A DNA stretch of 61,141 bases from Gammaproteobacteria bacterium (GTDB lineage Bacteria > Pseudomonadota > Gammaproteobacteria > Steroidobacterales > GCA-2729495): positions 1 to 61,141 of the forward strand of contig JAJFJS010000127.1 of NCBI GenBank assembly GCA_021773815.1, in the 5' to 3' direction. This document shows, in pieces, positions 7,587 through 10,070 of the stretch. The position numbers and the translations under genes were made by a program. Each line of letters opens with the position of its first letter. Position 1 is the first letter of the stretch. The notes beneath the pieces are model-generated. The model was not told the origin of the DNA, did not search any database, and saw only the letters and a list, made by a program, of their open reading frames with translations.

Positions 7587-8006
7587 GTGAGCCAAAAAAT
7601 CAACCCAGAAATCCAGGCAACACCAGCATTGGCGCTGGAAACGTTTGCCAATCCGAACCCCGAGCGCGACTACCGGATCCAAATCGAGATCCCCGAGTTC
7701 ACGTGCCTGTGCCCCAAGACCGGTCAACCGGATTTTGCCGTCCTGGAACTCGAATACGTGCCCGACACCCTGTGCCTGGAACTCAAGGCGCTCAAGACCT
7801 ATGTCTGGGCGTTCCGTGATATTGGCGCATTCCACGAGGCTGTCACCAACCGGATCCTGAACGATCTCAGCGCCGCGGCCAGCCCCCGTTTTATGCGCCT
7901 GACGGCCCGATTTAACGTCCGGGGCGGCATCTACACGAACATCGTCGCCGAGCACCGCATGGACGGATGGGAGCCGTCTCCGGGGACGGATCCGGCCGCC
8001 GGCTGA
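7587..8006 (+). CDS. queF: NADPH-dependent 7-cyano-7-deazaguanine reductase QueF (short type)
   Basis: Reduces the nitrile of preQ0 to preQ1 in queuosine biosynthesis. The protein is 139 residues, the short unimodular QueF form. The signature [14 protein letters not shown] (37-50) supplies the thioimide-forming cysteine (C42) and the acid D49; [20 protein letters not shown] follows, with the conserved His-Glu. The start is GTG at 7587 with a weak ribosome site. A small hairpin (CCGAC/GTCGG, 7563-7577) sits just before the start. It is not co-transcribed with other queuosine genes here, but gluQ, which acts on queuosine-containing tRNA(Asp), lies about 1.1 kb downstream. Confidence 0.95.
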
Positions 8007-8023
8007 CCGCTCAGAGGATGGCT

Positions 8024-8048
8024 GTCGGGCCCGGGCCGCCTGCCCGAC
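8024..8048 (+). terminator. GC-rich hairpin after queF, no T tract
   Basis: GTCGGGC (8024-8030) pairs exactly with GCCCGAC (8042-8048), 18 bases after the queF stop. No run of T follows on either strand, so this is at best a weak or factor-dependent terminator or a 3'-end stabiliser. Confidence 0.3.
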
Positions 8049-8104
8049 CGGCCCTCTCGACCGCGGCCACCCCACCCCCTGTCCAAATGGTGGTGACAAA
8101 GCCC

Positions 8105-8132
8105 TTCAAACTGCGCGCCGCCTATGTATAAT
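8105..8132 (+). promoter_or_regulatory. Sigma70 promoter of the DksA-like gene
   Basis: TTCAAA (8105-8110), a 16-base spacer and a perfect TATAAT (8127-8132). Transcription would start near 8139, giving about 30 bases of leader before the ATG at 8169. This argues against the in-frame upstream ATG at 8124, which lies inside the promoter. Confidence 0.65.
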
Positions 8133-8168
8133 TCCGCGGTCGTTTTGTCACCGTCGGGACTCGAGCAG

Positions 8169-9071
8169 ATGGCTGCCAAGAAAAAACCCTCTCGGAAAAA
8201 GACTGTCTCCAGAACGCGGAAGACCTCCGCGAAGAAAAAGGTGAGCAAGAAAAAAGTGACTCGCAAGGTCGCGAAAAAGGCTGCCAAGCGGAAAGCATCA
8301 CGGAAGAAAACGACGACGAAGAAAGTCAGCCGGAAAAAGGCCGCGAAGAAAAAGAAGAAGACCGTCAGGAAGAAGGCCTCGAAGAAGACAACGACAAGGA
8401 AGAAGGTTTCCAAAAAGAAACCTTCTCGGAAGAAGACGTCGAAAACGAAGGCTAAAAAGAAGCCTTCCAAGAAAAGGACTTCCAAAACAAAAGTGACGAG
8501 CAAAACTGCAAGGAAGACGACCGGGAAATCCGGTACGGCAACGGCGTCCGCGAAAAATAATAAAAAAGTGACGAAACGAATAACGGCTGTCAATGTGACA
8601 GCCAAGTCGGCTGGTCCCGTGCGCAAGCGCAAAAAGTCCAACCCGGACGCGCTGATTCACGGGATCGAACCCTATCGCCCCAAGAAGGGCGAGGAGTACA
8701 TGGGCGACAGCCAACTCGAACATTTTCGGCGCATTCTACTGGCCTGGAAACAGGAATTAATGCAGGAAGTTGATCGAACCGTCCATCACATGCAGGACGA
8801 GGCGAGCAATTTTCCCGATCCAAACGATCGCGCCACGCAGGAATCCGAGTTCGGCCTGGAACTGCGCACCCGCGACCGTGAGCGCAAGCTGCTGAAGAAG
8901 ATCGCCCAGGCCATTGCTCGCGTCGATGACGGCAGCTACGGATTCTGCGAAGAGACCGGCGAGGAAATTGGTCTGCAGCGGCTCGAAGCACGCCCGGTAG
9001 CCACACTGTCCGTCGAGGCCCAGGAACGCCGCGAACTGGCGGAACGGCAGTATTCGGACCGCGACGACTAG
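8169..9071 (+). CDS. dksA: DksA-family RNA polymerase-binding protein with a lysine-rich histone-like N-terminal tail
   Basis: DksA binds the RNA polymerase secondary channel and works with ppGpp. The C-terminal part (about 169-300, PYRPKKGEEYMGDSQLEHF onward) is a complete DksA fold, with the coiled-coil tip D217, D220 and A222 (DPNDRA). The first 120 residues hold 51 Lys and 12 Arg in repeats such as SRKK and KKVSKKK; there is no acidic residue before D160 and no aromatic before Y169. This resembles H1-like tails and should bind nucleic acid (inference). The four zinc-finger positions read C260, T263, S281, A284, so zinc binding is probably lost, as in cysteine-poor DksA paralogues. The start at 8169 is chosen from the promoter position. 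gluQ follows 51 bases later, the dksA-gluQ order common in gammaproteobacteria. Confidence 0.93.
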   Translation: MAAKKKPSRKKTVSRTRKTSAKKKVSKKKVTRKVAKKAAKRKASRKKTTTKKVSRKKAAKKKKKTVRKKASKKTTTRKKVSKKKPSRKKTSKTKAKKKPSKKRTSKTKVTSKTARKTTGKSGTATASAKNNKKVTKRITAVNVTAKSAGPVRKRKKSNPDALIHGIEPYRPKKGEEYMGDSQLEHFRRILLAWKQELMQEVDRTVHHMQDEASNFPDPNDRATQESEFGLELRTRDRERKLLKKIAQAIARVDDGSYGFCEETGEEIGLQRLEARPVATLSVEAQERRELAERQYSDRDD

Positions 9072-9122
9072 TATCAGTAACGCCTCCACGGCGCCCGTCA
9101 CGACGCGCGACAAGCGCACCTC

Positions 9123-10070
9123 GTGACTGCCGGCAGAAATTCGAGTGCGCATTCCGGCGGCGACCCCGGTTACCGGGGTCGCTTCGCGCCATCCCCGACC
9201 GGCCCGCTGCACTTCGGTTCACTCATCGCGGCCACCGCAAGCTACCTGCAGGCGCTGGTCCACGACGGTGAATGGCTGCTGCGCATCGAAGATATCGACC
9301 CGCCGAGAGAAAGCCCGGGTGGCGCTGAACAGCTCATTGACGCACTCACGACCCACGGATTTTCCTGGTGTGGCCCGGTCCGCTATCAACACGCTCGGCT
9401 GAACGATTACCAGGCCGTTGTCGAGCGCCTGCTCGGAGACGGCGCGGCCTATCGATGCGCGTGTACACGAGACGAAATCCGGCGCGCGGCAAAATTATCC
9501 GGCCCGACCGGCCCGATTTACCCGGGCACCTGTCGCGACCGGAACTTGACCGACAATGATGTCACGCCGTCATCCATCCGACTGCGCACCACCAATGCGG
9601 TGATCACATTTGACGATATGTTGCAGGGACCGGTTCGCTGTCACATCGCCGACACCATCGGGGACTTCATTATTCGTCGACGCGACGGACTGATCGCATA
9701 TAACCTCGCGGTCGTCATCGACGATGCCCGACAACGCATCACCGAGGTCGTACGCGGCTGCGACCTGCTCGACATGACACCCGCGCAGATCGCATTGCAA
9801 CGGGCGCTCGGCCTGCCGACACCCCGCTACATGCATATTCCGGTTGCGACGCACAAAGACGGTCAGAAACTGAGCAAGCAAAGTGGCGCCGAGGCCGTCG
9901 ACCTGTCTCGGCCCGGCAAAAACCTGATCGCCGCTCTGCGCTTTTTGCGGCAGGAACCGCCACCGACATTGGCCACGGCGTCACTGAGCGAAATCTGGTA
10001 TTGGGCGGGAAGCCACTGGCATCCGGAAAATCTGGGCGCAAGGCGACATGCTGTCGCCATAACCGAGTAG
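9123..10070 (+). CDS. gluQ: Glutamyl-Q tRNA(Asp) synthetase GluQ
   Basis: Attaches glutamate to the queuosine base of tRNA(Asp). It is a truncated class I GluRS paralogue (315 aa) lacking the anticodon-binding domain. The HIGH-like site is PSPTGPLHFGS and the KMSKS-like site is KLSKQ. The zinc site CAC...YPGTC (C-x-C and Y-x3-C) is the GluQ-type pattern. The start is GTG at 9123. It follows the DksA-like gene on the same strand and probably shares its transcript. Confidence 0.95.
   Translation: MTAGRNSSAHSGGDPGYRGRFAPSPTGPLHFGSLIAATASYLQALVHDGEWLLRIEDIDPPRESPGGAEQLIDALTTHGFSWCGPVRYQHARLNDYQAVVERLLGDGAAYRCACTRDEIRRAAKLSGPTGPIYPGTCRDRNLTDNDVTPSSIRLRTTNAVITFDDMLQGPVRCHIADTIGDFIIRRRDGLIAYNLAVVIDDARQRITEVVRGCDLLDMTPAQIALQRALGLPTPRYMHIPVATHKDGQKLSKQSGAEAVDLSRPGKNLIAALRFLRQEPPPTLATASLSEIWYWAGSHWHPENLGARRHAVAITE

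Follow-up and report, generated by a model that had tools for sequence, protein, structure and literature searches.

The stretch of DNA analyzed here (the window, 61,141 nucleotides) encodes on its plus strand, at 8169-9071, a DksA protein of 300 residues in a single open frame, in which approximately 163 lysine/arginine-rich residues are followed by a canonical DksA core that has lost its zinc ligands. A basic N-terminal tail was found in 61 of 148 gammaproteobacterial genomes and in 52 of 122 families (among the matches listed), mostly on zinc-type DksA; the initial annotation had regarded the tailed protein as a special fusion, and it is instead an instance of a widespread lineage trait. 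The frame, the composition and the zinc-ligand, tip and tail residues are all as that annotation had given them. The components are of known kinds and their combination is a lineage variant; the main interest of the tailed DksA lies in its breadth and in the link to the residue at the E. coli K139 position. No description of a lysine-rich DksA tail was found among the titles and abstract openings listed from the open-licence literature.

Reading frame and translation start

The other two frames of the plus strand contain stops within the tail region. The tail frame reaches 29 lysines in 60 residues, the next best of the 307 open reading frames of at least 60 residues in the window having 9. 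This lysine density, together with the protein-level selection described below, rules out a low-complexity frame that arose by chance. A sigma-70 promoter was predicted on the plus strand at 8105-8132, with the -35 element TTCAAA (8105-8110), a 16-nt spacer and the -10 element TATAAT (8127-8132); it matches the consensus at 10 of 12 positions and is the sole promoter-like site in 7900-9200, for which shuffling gave a mean of 0.2. Among the 28 upstream regions of the same family, every one contains TATAAT and 25 contain TGTATAAT; in these 28 regions the conserved element ends 32-48 nt before the ATG and the codon next to the ATG encodes Ala (20) or Pro (8). An in-frame upstream ATG at 8124 falls inside TATGTATAAT, the TATAAT of which is the -10 element. 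As this ATG overlaps the conserved promoter element, 8169 was taken as the start, and a wrong start codon or frame is ruled out by the conserved promoter lying over the upstream ATG and by the stops in the other frames.

A longer DksA N-terminus was also described in Xanthomonas euvesicatoria, a genus that we take to be placed near the window's order. There, dksA was shown to start well upstream of its annotated start by MS peptides and start-codon mutagenesis, and a table row of the study gives 256 and 147, which we read as new and old length (PMC5559785). A translation start inside the core, which the initial annotation had named as the observation that would speak against the tail, is contradicted in this species by the peptides and the start-codon data. 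The lysine/alanine tails that had been mentioned for Xanthomonas-type DksA proteins are backed as far as a longer translated N-terminus is concerned, the likeness being one of length and translation. A processed form of DksA was also seen in X. euvesicatoria (PMC5559785), and for this reason the tail is possibly removed from part of the protein.

On the minus strand, a phenylalanine-rich open frame of 236 residues (7931-8641) mirrors the lysine tail and is likely an annotation trap. It was rejected as a gene by inference, since its phenylalanines mirror the lysine codons. For X. euvesicatoria, deletion of a comparable ORF annotated opposite dksA was proposed (PMC5559785).

The DksA core and the former zinc site

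Residues 164-300 (8658-9068, plus strand) constitute the DksA core, which was assigned by TIGR02420, by sequence matches to PDB entries 1tjl and 4ijj and by fold matches to 1tjl, 5vsw, 7khi and 4ijj. It passes TIGR02420 with 161.4 bits (cut-off 115.5), lies below the cut-off of the stricter NF008045 (183 vs 289) and is identical to E. coli DksA at 84 of 142 aligned residues. In Foldseek the predicted model matched E. coli DksA, both alone and in polymerase complexes, and P. aeruginosa DksA2 (4ijj, E 9.6e-8). The coiled-coil tip D217-P-N-D220-R-A222 (DxxDxA; 8817-8834, plus strand), which aligns with E. coli D71, D74 and A76, is intact as had been claimed. By alignment, the former zinc site (8946-9023, plus strand) consists of C260, T263, S281 and A284, followed by Q285 at the E. 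coli K139 position, which confirms the reported loss of the ligands; the four-cysteine zinc site of classical zinc-type DksA is absent (C-T-S-A). C260 is the sole cysteine of the whole 300-residue protein, and an intramolecular disulphide is therefore impossible.

The likeness to E. coli DksA (1tjl, 5vsw, 7khi) covers core sequence, fold, the DxxDxA tip and R91, L95, K98 and R129. The E. coli protein differs by its 151 residues, four zinc cysteines and K139, whereas a tail of ~163 residues, one Cys and Q285 are present here. With P. aeruginosa DksA2 (4ijj) the protein shares a zinc-free fold and Thr and Ala at ligand positions 2 and 4. DksA2 reads C-T-C-A followed by Lys, while the window's protein reads C-T-S-A followed by Gln, carries a basic tail and is the sole canonical copy. 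Fold match and ligand letters place it with the DksA2-type proteins, which have a DksA fold without the C4 site, but it is not the extra copy beside a zinc-type DksA that is also characteristic of this type. P. aeruginosa DksA2 was reported to fold and function without zinc (PMC9239242; PMC9213440) and, according to the latter study, is an accessory copy produced under zinc starvation. We regard it as very probable that the protein encoded in the window is a zinc-free, otherwise canonical housekeeping DksA.

Of the 56 loci of the window's order, which represent 53 genomes with second copies included, 50 are zinc-less (26 CTSA, 22 CTCA, 2 CTTA) and 6 have CCCC at the zinc positions, as do 138 of 151 in the class set (among the matches listed). 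As judged from the sequences, loss of the zinc ligands is a mark of the window's order. On the weakly supported core tree the zinc state changes twice. Between ELRT and ALARLDDG, the core of one further locus (L057 of genome G042) is ~13 residues shorter, the R91-L95-K98 stretch being among those missing, and the profile match is split; this is either an assembly error or a real deletion.

The K139 position and ppGpp site 2

All 109 unique zinc-less (CTxA) cores have Gln at the E. coli K139 position, and Lys occupies it in all 146 unique C4 cores and in 2 of 2 CSTM cores (all among the matches listed), DksA2-like proteins being mostly below the sampling cut-off of this comparison. P. aeruginosa DksA2 has Lys at this position according to the alignment; since it is zinc-free, zinc loss does not force the loss of K139. 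The association of Gln with zinc loss probably goes back to one or few events and is common by descent. In published work, R91, K98 and K139 were named among the residues coordinating the ppGpp phosphates at site 2, and L95 and R129 are the remaining DksA contacts of this site (PMC7676912). The window's protein keeps four of these five, R91, L95, K98 and R129, and K139 is exchanged for Gln (Q285, codon 9021-9023, plus strand). Because of this exchange a full ppGpp response is not to be assumed, and the residue pattern suggests that the ppGpp response may be retuned in zinc-less DksAs. The pattern of Gln in zinc-less and K139 in zinc-type proteins is, on the cores compared, new here.

Composition and predicted structure of the tail

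The tail comprises residues 1-163 (8169-8657, plus strand) and is lysine/arginine-rich, of low complexity and probably disordered. A recount of residues 1-120 gave 51 Lys and 12 Arg, and no acidic residue occurs before position 160, in agreement with the initial annotation. The first 166 residues contain 59 Lys and 15 Arg, the net charge of the tail is about +73, and the densest stretch has 11 Lys in 20 residues. The tail DNA contains an imperfect tandem repeat with a 30-nt unit (8355-8450). The tail is a long basic low-complexity segment as seen in histone H1-like and AlgP-type tails. The description as histone-H1-like, which had been given to it, holds for the composition and does not denote homology: the tails of AlgP, PhaF and histone H1 are likewise long, of low complexity and lysine-rich, but these are C-terminal, have KPAA-type repeats and belong to unrelated proteins, so that the likeness is one of composition only.

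AlphaFold assigned pLDDT values below 50 to residues 1-4, 11-18 and 77-157 and a helix of moderate confidence to residues 19-77; the helix was left out of the interpretation, as no other alignment row spans the tail. A charge-hydropathy test was dropped, since it classed the folded core as disordered too and did not discriminate. On the predicted model, the tail may be flexible or disordered.

Selection on the tail

For the analysis of selection, tails were aligned as DNA, without amino-acid scoring, in 27 sister pairs with no shared members. Tail dN/dS ranged from 0.12 to 0.61 (median 0.27) and was below 1 in 27 of 27 pairs; these values may be biased low as Lys codons favour synonymous transitions. 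As a fairer comparison, A<->G exchanges at Lys codon positions 1, 2 and 3 occurred in the ratio 5 (Glu) : 29 (Arg) : 161 (synonymous), that is 161 synonymous against 34 nonsynonymous exchanges, and K/R exchanges (29) outnumbered K/E exchanges (5; p = 3.9e-5). Lysine is thus kept and, when it is replaced, positive charge is preferred. The tail is a real protein segment that is maintained by selection. All 158 unique tails of at least 40 residues are net positive and 155 of the 158 have at least +10; the others are L013 (+7 over 146 residues), L110 (+9 over 178) and L201, which is also below +10. The lysine share falls with core GC3 (Spearman -0.45) and so does K+R (-0.40), and because K+R drops as GC3 rises the charge density of the tail is not constant. 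Tail dN/dS exceeded core dN/dS in 20 of 20 computable pairs (3 of 23 were not computable). L002 and L058 (score <250) were excluded from these selection and charge counts as well as from the K139/PPK1 and the zinc-site and upstream counts.

Distribution of the tail

A basic tail was defined by at least 40 residues, at least 18% K+R and a net charge of at least +10, and the starts for the tail calls were picked by a scoring rule of our own. The class sample consists of the 148 genomes among the matches listed, out of 168 over the cut-off and 184 searched; the set of genome contigs consists of the best 80 of 461 relatives. In the window's order, a tail of at least 40 residues is present in 49 of 55 usable loci, L052 being left out of this count as it is truncated within the core. 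Three of the 6 loci without such a tail (L007, L027, L050) run off the contig end. The other three, L049, L051 and L053, have little or no tail, with an upstream stop and in frames that are not cut by the contig, and since these frames are intact the tail is dispensable. The genomes carrying L051 and L053 are small (1.6 and 1.4 Mb), which hints that the tail was lost there through streamlining. Beyond the class, a phylum sample was compared by length: its best matches fall within open frames of 124-193 residues, apart from four of 211-307. Because of these order, class and phylum counts, the tail is to be seen as a trait of many Gammaproteobacteria and not of this organism alone.

In one set of 62 basic tails, 56 sit on C4 (zinc-type) DksA, which rules out that the tail was gained together with zinc loss. 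A comparison of tail and zinc state on the tree comprised 3 supported independent pairs and had no power. The class-wide core tree is short and has weak support; on it, tail presence requires 37 changes, compared with a shuffled mean of 47.6 (38-56).

Genomic context

The gene next to dksA is gluQRS, encoding the tRNA glutamyl-Q(34) synthetase (9123-10070, plus strand; profile match). It is the usual neighbour of dksA, and E. coli presumably has the dksA-gluQRS order as well. Of 58 related full-length loci, 36 have a gluQRS motif 3' of dksA in the same orientation. The upstream gene (7587-8006) resembles queF by eye, and dksA would then be flanked by queuosine-related genes on both sides. In the related full-length loci, a queF-like motif was present in 30 of 58.

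The initial annotation had raised the question whether the genome has a second, zinc-type dksA. No second canonical dksA over the dksA cut-off was found in the genome (98.95% complete, 149 contigs). The only other hit, a short TraR/DksA-like protein that scores below this cut-off, is the second PF01258 match at L002:1486-1848 (minus strand); it has an intact C4 zinc motif (CxxC...CxxC) and is without the DPxDRA tip. The genome has one PPK1 match. The only RelA/SpoT-domain match in this nearly complete genome lies at G000:C127:45632-45961; two RelA/SpoT proteins are usual in a gammaproteobacterium. In three genomes of the same genus (G001-G003, 73-80% complete), nothing scored above the dksA cut-off; G003 has a contig in which a partial gluQRS-like match starts at base 6. 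We lean toward absent sequence, and not gene loss, as the reason for the missing dksA in these genomes.

Proposed role of the tail

Apart from the special fusion, the earlier reading stands with regard to a zinc-less DksA with intact tip, and the tethering it had put forward is sensible as a hypothesis. The core would fold without zinc like P. aeruginosa DksA2 and would enter the secondary channel of RNA polymerase, resulting in ppGpp-linked control of stringent promoters. The flexible tail (~+73) would bind the phosphates of DNA and/or RNA irrespective of sequence, and once bound it would keep DksA near transcribing or initiating polymerase and raise its effective concentration, comparable to what is considered for the AlgP, PhaF and H1 tails. 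With less weight, site 2 may bind ppGpp more weakly without K139, and the lack of paired cysteines may free the regulator from zinc supply and thiol oxidation. The tether is suggested by charge, selection and the precedent of AlgP, whose tail peptides bind DNA, and of PhaF, whose tail is thought to do so (PMC9239181). Binding, localisation or transcription data on any tailed DksA were not found in the open-licence literature. We give a DNA/RNA tether as the main role of the tail about an even chance; that both parts hold together, a zinc-independent housekeeping DksA and a tail acting as non-specific polyanion tether, we likewise consider a balanced proposition.

The main rival, possible but rather unlikely in our view, is that the tail is a tolerated low-complexity extension, which grows by repeat slippage and is purged of acidic, hydrophobic or truncating changes without having a specific partner. 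A tail length of 41-307 residues, a drifting composition, the imperfect 30-nt DNA repeat, short or absent tails in some relatives and the higher dN/dS of the tail than of the core in all computable pairs agree with this explanation. However, the strong lysine retention, with K/E rarer than K/R, and the occurrence of tails in so many of the sampled families (52/122 among the matches listed) argue against it. The tail might also bind polyphosphate, by lysine polyphosphate modification, and link DksA to polyP stores in starvation. A shift with polyP was reported for EngA and SrmB of P. aeruginosa, in which nine of 20 residues are Lys, and work cited in the same paper concerns DksA control of polyP in E. 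coli (PMC12077175). The window's tail attains 11 Lys in 20 and its genome has a PPK1 match, but nine Lys in 20 are attained by only 32 of 75 tails of at least 40 residues (best 80 of 461 relatives). Moreover, 26 of 61 tailed class genomes are without a PPK1 match, and PPK1 occurs in 35 of 61 tailed vs 63 of 87 tail-less genomes (p = 0.08), which is the opposite direction (all among the matches listed). This PPK1 distribution disfavours polyP as general tail partner; binding of polyP fits this genome and not the general pattern, and we consider it improbable. Similarly doubtful is a contact of the tail at one defined place, either with RNA polymerase or with nascent rRNA or ribosomal proteins, that modulates DksA affinity instead of tethering the protein to bulk DNA. 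Site 2 has DksA on one side and the beta' rim of the secondary channel on the other (PMC7676912), and a tail as long as this one (~160 residues) could extend to surfaces of the polymerase and to its exit channel. By eye, however, what the tails have in common is their composition and an M-(A/P)-x-K-K-like start, and no longer motif.

Implications for DksA in Gammaproteobacteria

DksA is the textbook partner of ppGpp and the model of its action derives from E. coli. If a basic tail under selection is present in about two fifths of gammaproteobacterial families, assays with E. coli-type protein, which has no such tail, miss a part that may decide where DksA acts. Because of the K139-to-Gln exchange in zinc-less DksAs, it can be tested directly whether this ppGpp contact is needed and how it is linked to the zinc site. 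As a tentative generalization, less likely to hold than to fail, DksA of many Gammaproteobacteria may consist of a core plus a basic anchor, through which the stringent response would be linked to a polyanion such as the nucleoid or nascent RNA. Zinc and K139 would have been lost together in the window's order, rendering the response independent of zinc and thiol state and maybe less ppGpp-dependent, and E. coli DksA would be one variant and not the rule.
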